A DNA stretch of 64,000 nucleotides. It comes from Reyranella humidisoli. GTDB lineage: Bacteria; Pseudomonadota; Alphaproteobacteria; Reyranellales; Reyranellaceae. Every line of letters begins with the position of its first letter. The stretch's first letter is position 1. The translations under genes and the position numbers were made by a program. Where the stretch lies: the NCBI RefSeq assembly GCF_019039055.1, contig NZ_JAHOPB010000001.1, forward strand, positions 434,001 through 498,000. The letters run 5' to 3'. Shown one piece after another: positions 53,464 through 63,381 of the stretch. Under the pieces are notes generated by a model. The model ran no database searches, was not told where the DNA came from, and saw only the letters and a program-made list of their open reading frames with translations.

Positions 53464-54438
53464 ATGAAGCGCCGTTCCCTGCTGGCCAGTGCCGCACTTC
53501 TGCCGCTCGGCCTTCCCGTCCAGGCCCAGGACGCTTATCCGTCGCGGCCGATCACGATGATCGTGCCCTTCCCGCCCGGTGGCGTTGCCGACATCACCGG
53601 CCGGCCGCTGGCCCACGTGATGAGCCGGATCCTGAAGCAGTCGGTGGTCGTGCAGAACAAGGGGGGTGCCGGCGGCTCGGTGGGTACGGCCCAGGCAGCG
53701 CGCGCGGCGCCGGACGGATACACGCTGCTGATGGCGCTCTCGTCGATCTCGGTGCTGCCGGTGGCGGATGTCCTCCAGGGGCGAACGCCGGCCTACGAAC
53801 TGGATCAGTTCGCTCCCATCGCCCTGATCAGCGCCGATCCGACGATCCTCGTGGTGCGCGAGGACGGTCCCTTCAAGTCCCTGAAGGACCTCGTCGAGGC
53901 CGCGAAGGCCAAGCCGGGCACGATCAACTACGGTTCATCCGGCGTCTACGGCACGTTGCATGTGGCGATGGAGATCTTCGCCACCGCAGCCGGGATCAAG
54001 CTGTTCCATATCCCCTACCAGGGCGGCGGCCCGGCCGTGGCGGCCCTGCTGGGCGGCCAGATCGATGCGCTGGCGTCCGGCCCGTCGGCGGCAATGGCAC
54101 AGATCAAGGCCGGCAAGATGCGCGCGTTGGCCGTATGGGGGGACAAGCGCCTCGCGTCGTTGCCCAACGTCCCCAGCATGAAGGAGTTGGGCTACGACGC
54201 CACCTTCTACATCTGGTCGGGCTTGTTCGCCCCCGTGGCTACGCCGGCCACCATACAGGCCGCGCTGCGCGATGCGGTTCGGCGCACCGTCGAGGATCCG
54301 GAGTTCAAGGAGGCGATGGCCAAGGTGGAAACTCCGATCGCCTATCTGGATGCGCCCCAATTCAAGGTGTTCCTCGAAAAGGACGCAGCGCGCCTCAAGA
54401 TCGCCGTGGAACGGATCGGCAAGGTGCCGGAGAAATAG
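53464..54438 (+). CDS. Bug family (tripartite tricarboxylate) solute-binding protein
   Basis: A 324-residue periplasmic receptor of the TctC/Bug family. The signal peptide MKRRSLLASAALLPLGLPVQAQ is followed by YPSRPITMIVPFPPGGVADITGRPLAHVMS, the family N-terminus, and GAGGSVGTAQAARAAPDGYTLLMA. The ligand loop YGSSGVYGTLHVAMEIFATAAGI and HIPYQGGGPAVAALLGGQIDAL are also typical. No TctA/TctB permease is adjacent, as is common for Bug receptors. GAGGAAGAG precedes the ATG. Ligand probably a carboxylate or an amino acid. Confidence 0.94.
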   Translation: MKRRSLLASAALLPLGLPVQAQDAYPSRPITMIVPFPPGGVADITGRPLAHVMSRILKQSVVVQNKGGAGGSVGTAQAARAAPDGYTLLMALSSISVLPVADVLQGRTPAYELDQFAPIALISADPTILVVREDGPFKSLKDLVEAAKAKPGTINYGSSGVYGTLHVAMEIFATAAGIKLFHIPYQGGGPAVAALLGGQIDALASGPSAAMAQIKAGKMRALAVWGDKRLASLPNVPSMKELGYDATFYIWSGLFAPVATPATIQAALRDAVRRTVEDPEFKEAMAKVETPIAYLDAPQFKVFLEKDAARLKIAVERIGKVPEK

Positions 54439-55573: not shown

Positions 55574-56566
55574 ATGTCCCGGATGTCGATGAACCGTCGC
55601 CGCTTTGCCGTTCTGGCCGGCACGACCGCGCTCGCCGCGCCGATGATCGGCTCGGGGGCCGCGCGCGGCCAGGCCCGCTGGAAGCCCGAGAAACCGATCA
55701 CGATCTACAATCCCTTCGCCGCAGGCGGCGTCACCGACGTCCACATGCGCCTGCTCGCCGAGGCGGTGGGCAAGATCCTGGGCCAGCAGATCATCATCGA
55801 CATCAAGCCCGGCGCTGCCGGCACGCTGGCGCCGGCGATGCTGCTCAACGCCAAGCCCGACGGCTACACGCTGGCGGTGATGAGCATCAATACGCTGCGC
55901 TATCCTCACTACCAGCAGACCAGCTGGAACCCGCTGACCGACTTCACCTACATCACCGGCCTGTCGGGCTACACGATGGGCATCGTCGTGCGCTCCGATT
56001 CTCCCTGGAAGACGTTCCAGGACATGATTGCCGCCGGCAAGAAGGACCCCGACAAGTACAATTACGGCACCTCGGGCGTGGGCGGCACGGGCCAGCTCAT
56101 GATGATCGAGGTCGAGCAGGCCACCGGCGCGAAGTTCACCCACGTTCCCTATAAGGGCGGCGCGGAGTGGATGCAGGCGCTGATGAGCGGCGAGATCCAG
56201 TTTATCGCCGACGCCGCGCAGTGGGCGCCGTTCGTCGACGACGGCAAGTGCCGGATCCTGGCCTTCGCCACCGAGAAGCGCATCCCGCGCTACCCGGACG
56301 TACCGACCATGGTGGAACTCGGCGTCAACGTCGTGGGCCAGAGCCCCTATGGCCTGCTCGGTCCCAAGGGCATGCCGCCCGAGATCGTCAACACGCTCCA
56401 CGAGGCTTTCAAGCAGGCCTCCGCCGAGCCGAAGGTGATCGAGTATCTCGCGAAGTTCATCCAGGTTCCGTGGGACAAGCCCCCCGCGGACTTCCGCGCT
56501 TTCGCCGAGAAGTACTATGCCGAGGTGAAGCCGCTGCTCATCAAGGCCGGTCTCGCGAAGCCCTGA
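55574..56566 (+). CDS. Bug family (tripartite tricarboxylate) solute-binding protein
   Basis: A 330-residue TctC/Bug receptor. The N-terminus has SMNRRRFAVLAGTTALAAP, a likely twin-arginine signal (RRRFAVL), cleaved near ARGQA. The mature start RWKPEKPITIYNPFAAGGVTDVHMRLLAEAVG and GYTLAVMSINTLRYPHYQQ are family features. It begins a three-gene run with two Lin0512 proteins 13 bp behind it, suggesting that the receptor and these proteins serve one substrate. No TctAB genes adjoin. Confidence 0.93.
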   Translation: MSRMSMNRRRFAVLAGTTALAAPMIGSGAARGQARWKPEKPITIYNPFAAGGVTDVHMRLLAEAVGKILGQQIIIDIKPGAAGTLAPAMLLNAKPDGYTLAVMSINTLRYPHYQQTSWNPLTDFTYITGLSGYTMGIVVRSDSPWKTFQDMIAAGKKDPDKYNYGTSGVGGTGQLMMIEVEQATGAKFTHVPYKGGAEWMQALMSGEIQFIADAAQWAPFVDDGKCRILAFATEKRIPRYPDVPTMVELGVNVVGQSPYGLLGPKGMPPEIVNTLHEAFKQASAEPKVIEYLAKFIQVPWDKPPADFRAFAEKYYAEVKPLLIKAGLAKP

Positions 56567-56579
56567 ACAGGAGACGACC

Positions 56580-56918
56580 ATGGCGCTGAAAAAGGTGGCC
56601 CTCGAGATCGGCATGGGCACCGACATCCGGGGCGGCGACTACACCAAGGCCGCCGTCCGGGCCCTGCGCGACGCGCTGTGGCACAACTCACTCACCATCG
56701 CCACGGCGCTGGGCAAGTCGAGCGACGACATGGTGGTCGAGGTCCTGATCGGCGTGCCCCAGCCCGACCAGGTCGACACCGCGCAGGTGCTGGCGGTTCT
56801 GCCGCACGGTACCGGAACGGTGAAGGTGGTCGAGGGTGGACTCGAAGTCGCCAACGAAGCCGGCACGGACAAGACGGTGATCGCCCAGGCGGCCGCCATC
56901 GTTCGTCTGGATCTGTGA
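56580..56918 (+). CDS. Lin0512 family protein (first of tandem pair)
   Basis: A 112-residue protein of the Lin0512 family (PF09585), conserved but uncharacterised. It has the family pattern VALEIGMGTDIRGGDYTKAAVRALRDALWHNSL, then VEVLIGVPQPDQVDTAQVLAVLPHGTGTVKVVEGGLEV. The next gene is a diverged copy (about half of the residues identical by eye), so they may form a hetero-oligomer. AGGAGACGACC precedes the ATG. Confidence 0.92.
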   Translation: MALKKVALEIGMGTDIRGGDYTKAAVRALRDALWHNSLTIATALGKSSDDMVVEVLIGVPQPDQVDTAQVLAVLPHGTGTVKVVEGGLEVANEAGTDKTVIAQAAAIVRLDL

Positions 56919-56931
56919 GAGGAGCAAGACG

Positions 56932-57276
56932 ATGACCGCCAAGCGCGTGATCCTCGAACTCGGCACCGGCAACGACCTGCACGGCGGCGACTACACCAAG
57001 GCCGCGCTGCGCGCGGTGCAGGACGCCCTGCACCATTCGTCGCTCGCGATGATCCGGGCGCTGAAGATCGACACCAAGACCGGCATGTTCGTCGACGTGA
57101 CGATCGGCGTGCAGCAGCCCGACAAGGTCGACGTGGAAAAGGTGAAGGCTTCCCTGCCGCATGGCATCGTCACCGTGAAGGTGGTGAAGGGCGGCCTCGA
57201 CATCGCCGATCCGGAGAACAACGATCCGGCGGTGATCGCCAGCGCCGCCATCGCGGTCCGGATGGAGATTCCCTGA
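56932..57276 (+). CDS. Lin0512 family protein (second of tandem pair)
   Basis: A 114-residue paralogue of the preceding gene, 13 bp downstream. It keeps LELGTGNDLHGGDYTKAALRAVQDALHHSSL and VTIGVQQPDKVDVEKVKASLPHGIVTVKVVKGGLDI. Known family members are usually found as adjacent pairs, and no enzyme activity is assigned. The preserved spacing of Gly, His and Asp residues (GGDYTKAA; HxS) suggests a shared active or ligand site. A long inverted repeat follows its stop. Confidence 0.92.
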   Translation: MTAKRVILELGTGNDLHGGDYTKAALRAVQDALHHSSLAMIRALKIDTKTGMFVDVTIGVQQPDKVDVEKVKASLPHGIVTVKVVKGGLDIADPENNDPAVIASAAIAVRMEIP

Positions 57277-58548: not shown

Positions 58549-59076
58549 TCAGGCCTTGGGCTTCACCAGCATCGCCAGGCCCTGCTCGATGGCCGTGCGG
58601 GCCATGGCGCGAAGCTGGTCGTCGGTGGCACTGCTGACCGGATGGCCGATCTGGGCGAAGGCATAGTCCGGCATGCCGAGCACGCGGCTCATCATGTCGG
58701 CGGCGCTGGCGAAGCGGGTCGTCATCACGCTGAACGCGGGAACGTCCAGTCTTTCAGCGGTAACCGAGTCGTGCAGACTGCACGATGAGCAGGACCCTCA
58801 ATCCCCCAGGCCGGAAACGACGGCGTCCCAGCCCTTGATCTCCGCCACGATGTGCGGATCGGCCGGGGCGCTGTAGTTCGACTTGGTGCGGCTCACCACG
58901 CTGGCGACGCCATATTCCTCGCGCAGGATCTGGTCGAGGTGCTTGAAGAAGCCCTTGGTGCCTTCCTTGCCGTTGGAGATGAAGCCGATGGTCTTGCCCT
59001 CCAGCGTGTCGAGACGCGGGGCGAGCCGGCCGGCCGGCGGCGCGGTGCCGGGCGTGGGATCGAGAACTTCGAACAT
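58549..59076 (-). CDS. UGSC family selenoprotein with in-frame UGA (Sec93)
   Basis: A 175-codon gene interrupted by an in-frame TGA at codon 93 (58798-58800). Before it the protein reads MFEVLDPTPGTAPPAGRLAP, then LEGKTIGFISNGKEGTKGFFKHL, and ends KGWDAVVSGLGD. After the TGA the same frame continues GSCSSCSLHDSVTAERLDVP and AFSVMTTRFASAADMMSRVL to an end at LVKPKA-stop. Reading TGA as selenocysteine gives exactly the motif U-G-S-C, for which the UGSC family is named, followed by another Cys. A compact hairpin starts about 14 nt behind the TGA. I chose the start at 59076 (MFEVLDP, preceded by AAGAGGAAC). The upstream gene is 11 bp away. Redox activity through Sec/Cys is inferred from the motif; the substrate is not known. 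If TGA is a true stop this would be a pseudogene, but the intact downstream frame argues against that. Confidence 0.85.
58770..58784 (-). promoter_or_regulatory. Candidate bacterial SECIS hairpin
   Basis: On the minus strand CGTGCA-GTC-TGCACG forms a 6-bp stem with a GUC loop, 13 nt downstream of the UGA at 58798-58800. Bacterial SECIS elements are hairpins immediately behind the UGA with a G/GU in the apical loop, in this distance range. The hairpin overlaps the codons for Cys-Ser-Leu-His, as expected for a bacterial selenoprotein. Confidence 0.65.
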
Positions 59077-59087
59077 GAGGGTTCCTC

Positions 59088-60143
59088 TTACTTCTTGGGA
59101 GGTTCGCAATCGACGCAGACGCCGATGGGAAGGGTGACGGCATAGCTCTTGTTGCCGAGCCACGGCGGGATCACGGCACCGAAGCCGCCGGCCGGTCCGC
59201 CGGCCGCAACGACCAGCAGCTGGTCGGGCGAGTCCATCGCGGTATAGACGCTGTCGCCGCGGTCGCGCACGACGGCGCCCTTGCCGACCTCGGCCCATTC
59301 GCGGCGATGGATGCGCGCGCGCTCGTGGATGAAGGTCGCGATGTCGGCCTTGGTCCAGCCGCCGGCCTGCAGATGCTCGCGCAACTGCTTGGGAATGACG
59401 ATCGCGTAGTTGCCGGGATGGATCGAATAGTGGCGCATGTTGGCGCGCATCTCGGCCGCGAAGGTTTCCAGGATTTCCTCGGGCTTGGTCGTCCATTCGT
59501 TCATCAGCTGGCGCGGCGCGCCCGCGGACATCACCGTGACGGAGGACGCGCCCTTCGGCACGCCGCGATGCTCGGCCAGTGGCAGCCAGGTCATGTCTTC
59601 CTCGTCCTCGGCGACGCAGTAGCTGAACTTGCCGGGATGGCCGAGCGTCGAGCGGTCGATCACGCCCGGCCGGTCGTCCAGCAGGTTGATCAGGCAGAGC
59701 CGGATGGCGCGCCCGATGACCGCCGTCGCGCGGTCCGAGTTGGCAAGCGCGTTGAACGTGCCGCTGGCGCCGATCTCGAGCCGGATCGGCCCGTTCAGGA
59801 TGACCAGCACCGCGCAGCCGCCGGTGCTGGCGGTGGCGCCGTGCATCAGGAACTCGTCCTGCATCATGGCGGTCCACGCCGTCACGACGACGGGGAAATG
59901 CATGGGCAGGCAACCCGCCATCACGGCATTGATCGCGAGCTTCTCGGCGGTGATGGCGAGACCGCGCACCGGCTCGATGCCGATCAGCTGGTCGGGCGGC
60001 ATCATCACCCATTCGAGGCATTCCTGAACCGCTTCGCGCGTCGGCGGCACGATCGGCAGGCCGTCGGTCCAGCCGTTGGAATGATAGAGTTCCTGGACGG
60101 CCGAAATGCTGTCGGCCGAGTAGGATCGGGATGCAAACTGCAC
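59088..60143 (-). CDS. UGSC-associated protein of unknown function
   Basis: A 351-residue cytoplasmic protein directly upstream of the UGSC selenoprotein. It begins with a segment around ELYHSNGWTDGLPIVPPTREAVQECLEWV, contains TAEKLAINAVMAGCLPMHFPVVVTAW and GASGTFNALANSDRATAVIGRAIRLCLINLLDD, and ends GVCVDCEPPKK, a C-terminal CxxC that could exchange electrons with a Sec/Cys partner. Related proteins are found next to UGSC genes, to my knowledge with no assigned activity. A start farther upstream exists only in another frame context; ATG at 60143 (MQFASRSYSAD) is preferred. The 114-bp gap to the LysR gene may hold the promoter. Confidence 0.82.
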   Translation of the reverse strand: MQFASRSYSADSISAVQELYHSNGWTDGLPIVPPTREAVQECLEWVMMPPDQLIGIEPVRGLAITAEKLAINAVMAGCLPMHFPVVVTAWTAMMQDEFLMHGATASTGGCAVLVILNGPIRLEIGASGTFNALANSDRATAVIGRAIRLCLINLLDDRPGVIDRSTLGHPGKFSYCVAEDEEDMTWLPLAEHRGVPKGASSVTVMSAGAPRQLMNEWTTKPEEILETFAAEMRANMRHYSIHPGNYAIVIPKQLREHLQAGGWTKADIATFIHERARIHRREWAEVGKGAVVRDRGDSVYTAMDSPDQLLVVAAGGPAGGFGAVIPPWLGNKSYAVTLPIGVCVDCEPPKK

Positions 60144-60257
60144 GTCGTTTCCTCCACCGCGCCGCGCACGTGACGCCAGACGGGCTGCCGCCAGAATAGC
60201 CTTCCGTGCGCCTATGCCAACCGCAAGCTGATAGCCGCAATTATTCCATTTCGTGCA

Positions 60258-61321: not shown

Positions 61322-62416
61322 TTACGCCGCCAGCATCCGCCCCGGATTACGCTGGCGCAGGATCGGCATGATCCACTTGCCGAAGCGCTCCGCCTCCTCG
61401 TCGTGCAGGTAGCCCGACAGGCAGAAGGAGTGACAGCCGAGATCGATGAACTTCTGCAACGTGTCGGCGCACTGCTCGGGATCGCCGACGATGGCGATGC
61501 CGGCGCCGGGGCGGACCTGGGTGATGCCGGTCCACAGATGCGGCTCGATGGTCTCGCCGATCGCCGCCAGCTCGCGCACGCGGCGGTTGGCTTCCGAGGT
61601 CGCGAAGCGTTCCTTCACGAAGGCCTTCTGCGCCTCGCTCGCATGTTCGACGAGCCCGTGGGCGAAATCCCAGGCTTCCTTCTCGGTCTCGCGGCAGACG
61701 ACCTGCAGGCGCATGCCGAAGCCGATCGCGTTCTCGCGCCCGTGGCGCGCCGCCATCGACTTGATCTCTTCCATGTTGGCGCGAATGCGCTCGTAGGTGT
61801 CGCCCCAGAAGAGATGCACGTCGGAGTGCTTGGCCGAGATCTCCCAGGCCTGCTTCGAGCCGCCGCCGAGATAGAAGCGCGGATGCGGCTGCTGCAACGG
61901 ATAGGGCCGGATCTGCGCGCCCTTGAGCTGGTAGAACTTGCCGTCGAAGTTCACCGGTCCGCGCGTCGTCCACAGCGCCTTCAGGATCGAGACTTCCTCG
62001 TCCATGATCTCGTAGCGCTCTTCCTTGCCCCACTTGATGCCTTCGGAGGCGCTCTCGGCCTCGCTCTGACCGGCGATCAGGTTGATGCAGATGCGGCCGC
62101 CCGAGAGCTGGTCGAAGGCCGTGATCATCTTGGCCAGAAGCACGGGATTGATGTAGCTCGGCCGCGCCGCCACCAGCATGCGCATCGACTTCGAGCGCGC
62201 CACCATCATGGCGCTGGAGATCCAGGCTTCCCAGCACGCGGTCTGCACCGGCACCAGCATGTATTCGAAGCCTGCCGCCTCGGCCGCGCCCACGATCTTG
62301 TCGAACAGCTCCAGCGACGGCGCCACCTGGGCGCTCGGCAATCCATAGGCGGTGGTGTCGCCCGCGGTGGGCAGGAACCAGCCGAATTCGAGGCGCTTCG
62401 GATCAGCCATCGTCAT
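61322..62416 (-). CDS. LLM class flavin-dependent monooxygenase (SsuD-like)
   Basis: A 364-residue FMN-dependent monooxygenase of the alkanesulfonate monooxygenase/SsuD branch. It has LEFGWFLPTAGDTTAYG, AGFEYMLVPVQTACWEAWISSAMMVARSKSMRMLVAARPSYINPVLLAKMITAFDQLSGGRICINLIAGQSE, and YLGGGSKQAWEISAKHSDVHLFWGDT. The ATG overlaps the stop of the Bug receptor (ATGA at 62413-62416), so the receptor and the enzyme are probably made together and handle the same or a related compound. Alkanesulfonate or a nitrilotriacetate-like carboxylate are possible substrates. Confidence 0.93.
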   Translation of the reverse strand: MTMADPKRLEFGWFLPTAGDTTAYGLPSAQVAPSLELFDKIVGAAEAAGFEYMLVPVQTACWEAWISSAMMVARSKSMRMLVAARPSYINPVLLAKMITAFDQLSGGRICINLIAGQSEAESASEGIKWGKEERYEIMDEEVSILKALWTTRGPVNFDGKFYQLKGAQIRPYPLQQPHPRFYLGGGSKQAWEISAKHSDVHLFWGDTYERIRANMEEIKSMAARHGRENAIGFGMRLQVVCRETEKEAWDFAHGLVEHASEAQKAFVKERFATSEANRRVRELAAIGETIEPHLWTGITQVRPGAGIAIVGDPEQCADTLQKFIDLGCHSFCLSGYLHDEEAERFGKWIMPILRQRNPGRMLAA

Positions 62417-63381
62417 TCCTTTTCGATGCCGGCGGCCTTGGCGAGCCGGCCCCACTTCTCGATCTCCGACTTGATGAACGGCCGGACGTCTTCCGGCGCC
62501 TTGCGCTGCGGCTCGAACGAGATGCCGCGCAGGCGCTTGATCACTTCCGGATCGGTCACGACCTCCTGCACCGCCTTGTCGATGCGCGCCACGATCTCGG
62601 GCGGCGTCTTCGACGGCGCCATGATCACGAACCAGGCGTCGAGCGCGAACTGGCCGAGCCCGGCCTGCTGGAAGGTGGGCACTTCGGGAAGCAGAGGCGA
62701 GCGCGAATCCGAGGCCATCACCAGCGCCTTCAACTTGCCTGCCTTCACCTGCGGCACGGCGATGGCCACGTCGGCGAAGGTCATGTCGATCTGGCCCGAC
62801 AGGAGATCGGCCAGCGCCTGCGGCGCGGACTTGTAGGGCACGTAGGTGATGTCGGTGCCGATCCGCTCGGCCAGCGTCGCCGTGATCACGCGGGCCGAGG
62901 GCGTTCCGGCGCCCGAGGTGAGCGGCGGCTTGGCCTTGGCGCGCTTGATGAAGTCGGCCAGCGTGTCCATGCCGGCATCGGCGCGCACCAGCAGGACGAA
63001 CTGGATGAATCCGTAGAAGCCGGCCGGCGCGAAATCGACCAGCGAATCGTAGGGCAACGACTTCATCAGGTTGGGATTGCCGGCATGCGTCGCCGCCGTC
63101 GCGATCATCAGCGTGTAGCCGTCGGGCGGCGCTTTCGCGACGAAGGTGCCGGCGATCGAACCGTTGCCGCCACCCTTGTTGTCGACGATCACCGGCTGGC
63201 CGAGCTTCGGCGCCAGTTGCTCCGCCATCAGGCGCGCCAGCGTGTCGGTCGCGCTGCCGGCGGCATAGGGCACGACGATGGTGAGCGGCTTCGCGGGCCA
63301 AGTCGTCTGCGCCCGTGCGGGGGCTGCCACCGCCGAAGCGGCCCCGAGAATCGTCAGTGCCTTGCGTCTGCTAATGCTCAT
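62413..63381 (-). CDS. Bug family (tripartite tricarboxylate) solute-binding protein
   Basis: A 322-residue TctC/Bug receptor. The N-terminus MSISRRKALTILGAASAVAAPARAQ has a twin-arginine (SRRKALTILG) signal. It contains TWPAKPLTIVVPYAAGSATDTLARLMAEQLAPKLGQPVIVDNKGGGNGSIAGTFVAKAPPDGYTLMIA and the ligand loop LTSGAGTPSARVITATLAERIG. Third orphan Bug receptor in the window. A TTG/GTG upstream extension of 23 codons is not favoured because it precedes the twin-arginine signal. Divergent from the gamma-glutamyltransferase gene. Confidence 0.94.
   Translation of the reverse strand: MSISRRKALTILGAASAVAAPARAQTTWPAKPLTIVVPYAAGSATDTLARLMAEQLAPKLGQPVIVDNKGGGNGSIAGTFVAKAPPDGYTLMIATAATHAGNPNLMKSLPYDSLVDFAPAGFYGFIQFVLLVRADAGMDTLADFIKRAKAKPPLTSGAGTPSARVITATLAERIGTDITYVPYKSAPQALADLLSGQIDMTFADVAIAVPQVKAGKLKALVMASDSRSPLLPEVPTFQQAGLGQFALDAWFVIMAPSKTPPEIVARIDKAVQEVVTDPEVIKRLRGISFEPQRKAPEDVRPFIKSEIEKWGRLAKAAGIEKE

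Follow-up and report, generated by a model that had tools for sequence, protein, structure and literature searches.

A gene of Reyranella humidisoli that is interrupted by an in-frame TGA almost certainly encodes a selenocysteine (Sec)-containing member of the UGSC family, in which SelB and Sec-tRNA-Sec would decode the UGA of codon 93 under the direction of a hairpin lying behind it. It is accompanied by a gene for a 351-residue partner protein. For the identity of the gene as a UGSC selenoprotein and its pairing with this partner, taken jointly, we estimate a probability of about 90%, a figure that excludes the reaction. The gene was read in a window of 64,000 nucleotides, by which we mean the whole stretch of DNA analyzed, and compared computationally with the rest of the source genome and with other bacterial genomes.

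The family to which the gene belongs is already known, having been described at least as early as 2008 in the Global Ocean Sampling survey (PMC2398784). The window protein belongs to this sequence family along its entire length and has the U-G-S-C motif; here as in the survey, the Sec form dominates over a rarer Cys form, and a fusion was described there as well, with another conserved domain (Unknown_1). Reviews of 2022 and 2026 name the family without a function, in agreement with the remark of an earlier note on this DNA that such proteins are poorly studied.

Selenocysteine coding in the UGSC gene

On the minus strand, the frame opens with the ATG at 59076, runs for 92 codons to GLGD, meets the TGA and continues as GSCSSCSLHDSV (GSCSSC...) for 82 more codons to the terminal TGA (58551-58549). 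The earlier note had described this frame from the same start to a total of 175 residues, with GLGD ahead of the TGA at codon 93 and GSCSSC behind it, and on re-reading the sequence its coordinates proved exact. Its assignment to the UGSC family holds as well: a Pfam search with the read-through protein returned PF24696 at 158.8 bits (1.8e-46; curated cut-off 25 bits), with residues 3-170 aligned to profile positions 1-170 of 172. Because this match spans the TGA unbroken, both halves of the protein form one domain. The NCBIfam equivalog NF041046 scored 114 bits against a cut-off of 125, and the gene is therefore assigned to the Pfam family and not to this narrower UGSC model. As had been anticipated for ordinary gene callers, the standard list of open reading frames contains only truncated or merged frames in place of the full protein, for example a 480-amino-acid ORF (58798..60240) that closes at the first TGA.

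UGSC genes were found in 38 of 385 Alphaproteobacteria genomes, and 94 of the 99 matches contain exactly one TGA. The source genome carries three UGSC genes with one in-frame TGA apiece. The closest relatives of the window gene occur in Reyranella genomes (up to 97% identity), and the TGA is present in independent genomes of this genus too. The frame downstream of it, whose lack of conservation would have counted against the proposal, is 77-98% identical among close orthologues. Among 69 aligned homologues, the codon-93 site is occupied by Sec or Cys in 100% and the second motif cysteine (C96) is retained in 99%.

Homologues with Cys at position 93, which the earlier note had suggested looking for, are present as six sequences (L072-L077), one from Nonomuraea, one from a Nocardioidaceae bacterium and four alphaproteobacterial (L074-L077). 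In a tree of 64 sequences these six forms need four state changes, so that the exchange between Sec and Cys appears to have happened more than once, although several of the branches are long and the starred branches force only two changes.

The source genome (5.5 Mb, 99.6% complete) was examined by targeted searches for Sec genes, and all four components that the earlier note had named for such a search, selA, selB, selC (tRNA-Sec) and selD, are present (Table 1). The first three are clustered in that order, with selD elsewhere. Among the class genomes, selA accompanies TGA-type UGSC in 34 of 35, the exception (G011) being a 77%-complete assembly, and two of the three genomes with Cys-type UGSC only are without selA.

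Table 1. Coordinates of the UGSC gene, its associated elements and the Sec machinery. Positions without a prefix refer to the window; C1 and C2 are contigs of the source genome.
Feature	Coordinates	Strand	Details
UGSC-family selenoprotein gene	58549..59076	minus	175 aa, stop codon included in coordinates; PF24696 match through TGA
UGA codon 93, probable Sec (U of U-G-S-C)	58798..58800	minus	frame reading; homologue alignment
SECIS hairpin UCGUGCA-GUC-UGCACGA	58769..58785, loop 58776-58778	minus	7 bp, 17 nt; conservation and covariation
GAGG ribosome-binding-like site	59084..59087	minus	7 nt ahead of UGSC ATG, directly past partner stop; read from sequence
Partner gene	59088..60143	minus	351 aa; Pfam and NCBIfam searches gave no family at E<=0.001
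selA	C2:133304-134617		564.8 bits
selB	C2:135401-137245		466.1 bits
tRNA-Sec	C2:137716-137807		71.5 bits; ARAGORN confirms, TCA anticodon
selD	C1:2792049-2792963		297.8 bits

The hairpin behind the UGA

Bacterial SECIS elements carry a small apical loop with a G (PMC1088965). In the window gene, a hairpin starts 12 nt past the UGA and places the GUC of its loop at nucleotides 23-25, counted from the U of the UGA. The earlier note had taken a 15-nt hairpin with a GUC loop as the SECIS; the hairpin, its loop and its role are borne out by conservation and covariation, whereas its length is 17 nt. An Rfam scan of the window gave no match, and the folding energy of the region is unremarkable (z -0.35, range -0.35 to 0.93). 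Since folding energy alone is not unusual, the significance of the element rests on its conservation.

Pairing was evaluated in a fixed register, nucleotides 15-22 with 26-33 from the U of the UGA, against a null of synonymous recodings. The 47 Sec sequences keep 7.21 of 8 pairs, and all 47 have GUU, GUC or GUA at nucleotides 23-25. When grouped into 15 Sec clusters (<80% identity), they keep 7.07 of 8 pairs compared with 4.76 (sd 0.36) under the null (z 6.4). The six Cys homologues show no conservation of the hairpin, with 3.33 pairs versus 3.29 under the null (z 0.1). The covariation score, obtained by independent counting over 23 sequences, was 0.156 versus 0.004-0.105 in slid registers and lay above 500 of 500 shuffles. 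One hairpin pair switches from G-C to A-U in several lineages, and in a paralogue from the source genome (L023) the replacements C99W and L101F occur together, converting a C-G pair to G-C. These observations support the hairpin as a bacterial SECIS.

In most genes a UGA ends translation, and it is the short frame that a standard gene caller sees at this locus; were the codon an ordinary stop, a sequencing error or the mark of a decayed gene, 92 residues or nothing useful would be made, and the unremarkable folding energy of the hairpin would fit. We give this reading next to no credence. An in-frame TGA that combines an unbroken profile match, recurrence in 94 of 99 class matches and in independent Reyranella genomes, and a hairpin kept beyond codon constraint is not a chance occurrence, and the conserved downstream frame, the complete Sec machinery and the conserved SECIS likewise argue against an ordinary stop.

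The partner gene and the gene neighbourhoods

The partner gene lies upstream of the UGSC gene, with 11 nt from its stop to the UGSC start, a gap that suggests a single transcript for both. This constant partner had not been mentioned in the earlier note. Partner homologues were found in 38 of 372 Alphaproteobacteria genomes, the same 38 that carry UGSC, and adjoin UGSC at nearly every locus examined; the source genome has four partner copies, all of them at its three UGSC loci. In one genome (G065), the contig with UGSC (L121, G065:C119) has no adjacent partner and the partner is found on another contig, which may reflect a split pair or an assembly effect. Actinobacterial Cys forms of UGSC are also accompanied by the partner, so the partnership is independent of Sec. 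Within the partner, D27, G28, M75, G118, R145, N153 and E179 are invariant and C78 is nearly so (96% conserved). We consider it very probable that UGSC and the 351-residue partner function together as a two-protein unit.

In a branch of the family, a single ORF encodes both UGSC and partner, and a second partner copy often comes after it. The single-ORF fusions L078-L088, with the motif G[MVN][GA][CGA]UG[SAT]C and mostly a second partner gene behind them, form a subfamily of their own, whose SECIS hairpin differs; inspection by eye of the distant subfamily with the motif G[MV]G[CG]UG[SA]CTPAV showed another hairpin instead, in which CCCGC and GCGGG enclose a loop with GUG. The fusion resembles the 'UGSC/Unknown_1' fusion of PMC2398784.

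A sequence search of the PDB with the UGSC and partner alignments found nothing significant, a Pfam search of both at relaxed E-values gave matches at chance level only, and the structure prediction for the partner was poor (pLDDT 55). With no family model for the partner and with UGSC broken in two by standard gene callers, the pairing easily escapes notice.

The window copy is surrounded by genes for a LysR regulator, a GST, two Lin0512 proteins, TctC-type solute receptors and a luciferase-like monooxygenase; no thioredoxin reductase (TrxR) gene lies beside it. Across 21 neighbourhoods, the genes that recur besides UGSC and partner are those for luciferase-like monooxygenases (6 loci), LysR regulators (4 loci) and DctP-type transporters (3 loci). 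TrxR-like flavoproteins of the Pyr_redox_2 type were found beside 4 of 20 loci, one of which is the C3 locus of the source genome.

Several features of these neighbourhoods were noted in their own right. The UGSC paralogue on C3 (near 84800-88100; L091:1637-4109, minus strand) adjoins two tandem partners and a TrxR-like FAD/NAD(P) disulfide oxidoreductase; its motif reads UGSCSSWSF, its codons co-vary and the hairpin is kept. At the third UGSC locus, on C1 (near 1291100-1293100; L092:2619-4061, plus strand), the partner is extended at its N terminus by a thioredoxin-like region that contains CHTC. An own-genome partner copy (L132) with such an extension and CHTC matched thioredoxin weakly (best E 0.0085). 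Two adjacent genes of the Lin0512 family (PF09585; about 112 and 114 aa) lie at 56580-57276 of the window on the plus strand, and a genome of the same genus also has a Lin0512 gene near its UGSC locus (L118:8178-8519). Three TctC-like solute-receptor genes lie inside the window in a span of 10 kb (53464-54438 and 55574-56566, plus strand; 62413-63381, minus strand), two of them confirmed by Pfam and the middle one recognized by resemblance, with no transporter membrane genes seen alongside.

Selenols favour fast redox chemistry. The role of the UGSC-partner pair might accordingly be the detoxification of an electrophile such as a peroxide, quinone or organohalide and not the reductive cleavage of a nutrient, with the partner as a scaffold or, via its highly conserved Cys78, as a second thiol site; the GST gene near the window copy and the luciferase-type monooxygenases near 6 loci would suit such a role. 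We regard detoxification as possible but rather unlikely, as the GST and monooxygenase genes are not constant and the solute receptors (TctC, DctP) in the neighbourhoods point to catabolism.

Predicted fold and possible reaction

The AlphaFold model of UGSC (pLDDT 88, pTM 0.83), built on 14 sequences, is an alternation of strands and helices in which Sec93 follows the third strand (85-91) and precedes a helix (98-109). Structure comparison matched it best to Rossmann-, receiver- and PurE-like domains, and no thioredoxin-fold entries are among the matches listed. From a model with this shallow 14-sequence alignment behind it, the fold is predicted to be Rossmann-like and not thioredoxin-like as published. 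UGSC could otherwise be a general thiol oxidoreductase of thioredoxin fold with no special need of a partner, a proposal that agrees with the U-x-x-C motif and with the likely Trx-like fold given in PMC2398784. We judge this improbable, considering the beta-alpha alternation and the structural matches of the model as well as the presence of the partner in every UGSC genome.

Among single structures, the UGSC model came closest to chain H of PDB 8s7v (Z 11.3, 133 residues, rmsd 3.2), a subunit of the methyl-coenzyme M reductase activation complex with 13% identity to UGSC. Such folds are common, so this match shows neither kinship nor shared function, and kinship with the subunit was dropped as a candidate; in the structure paper of 8s7v we found no shared active-site feature that could be compared with UGSC.

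A more suggestive similarity concerns the Sec site. GRDB (PF07355) is the selenoprotein B of glycine/sarcosine/betaine reductase, PrdB is its counterpart in D-proline reductase, and a PrdB-like selenoprotein family is known from ocean surveys (PMC2398784). GRDB and UGSC are alike in having Sec-x-x-C past a predicted strand, followed by a helix and then an E..G[IV]P segment; they differ in size, UGSC having about 175 residues compared with roughly 290 in PrdB-like relatives. When a deep UGSC profile built from 69 sequences was compared with PrdB-like proteins by hhalign, the probability was 73% (P 3.1e-5), and the alignment placed the two Sec sites on each other and Cys96 opposite a Cys. The score was 39.7; none of 200 column shuffles exceeded 21.8, and the reversed profile gave 14.6. 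With the Sec and Cys columns masked, the score was 27.5 and the probability 11%; a shallow UGSC profile against one PrdB-like protein gave 0.9%, that is, no match. PF07355 matched none of 14 UGSC members at E<=10, and with no match at the Pfam level UGSC is not assigned to this family. The partner (351 aa) shows no profile similarity to the PrdB-like relatives, and a search of the PDB for relatives of the PrdB-like protein returned none. Thus the Sec site of UGSC tentatively aligns with that of the GrdB/PrdB reductase selenoproteins, which we treat as a lead and not as membership.

When the class was searched with PF07355, the frames recovered were short ones stopping immediately ahead of the Sec site. 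The motif could be read in 16 of them: 14 continue through the TGA as VxPVUPxCTR-type selenoproteins, and the other 2 have Cys. A second hidden selenoprotein of the source genome, on C1 (near 1056884-1057420; L100:1582-2460, plus strand), is PrdB/GrdB-like (PF07355, 2.6e-9): its TGA falls in VPVUPACTR and the frame continues behind it, an arrangement common to many Alphaproteobacteria.

For the reaction, the role of the partner and the electron donor, we infer a scheme that we find plausible, at somewhat less than even odds: UGSC may be the subunit that supplies the catalytic selenol in a two-subunit reductase recycled by thioredoxin. The partner would bind or activate the substrate of UGSC, a small molecule that Sec93 would attack from its predicted position between the end of the third strand and the helix. 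Cys96 could then act as the resolving thiol and give a Sec-Cys selenenylsulfide, which thioredoxin and a thioredoxin-reductase-like flavoprotein would reduce again. The TrxR-like genes beside some UGSC loci and the weakly thioredoxin-like N-terminal region of L132 speak for this electron donor. Chemically, UGSC would come closest to GrdB/PrdB, the selenoprotein of glycine and D-proline reductase, and the module may be distantly related to it.

In the literature searched, subscription papers being outside its scope, we found no description of the co-occurring partner, the recurrent TrxR genes or the GrdB/PrdB link. As far as that literature shows, the co-occurrence of the partner, the Rossmann-like predicted fold, the tentative GrdB/PrdB alignment and the recurrent TrxR-like and Trx-like neighbours are new.

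More speculatively, UGSC and its partner might constitute an undescribed class of two-subunit selenoenzymes in Alphaproteobacteria and Actinobacteria, distantly related to the Stickland-type GrdB/PrdB reductases, supplied with electrons by the thioredoxin system and diversified into several copies per genome for different substrates, although we hold this to be doubtful. Cultured Reyranella strains (R. massiliensis, R. aquatilis) carry UGSC, and the presence of the partner in the same genomes, together with the possible link to reductases of known chemistry, makes of this family a testable two-protein enzyme.
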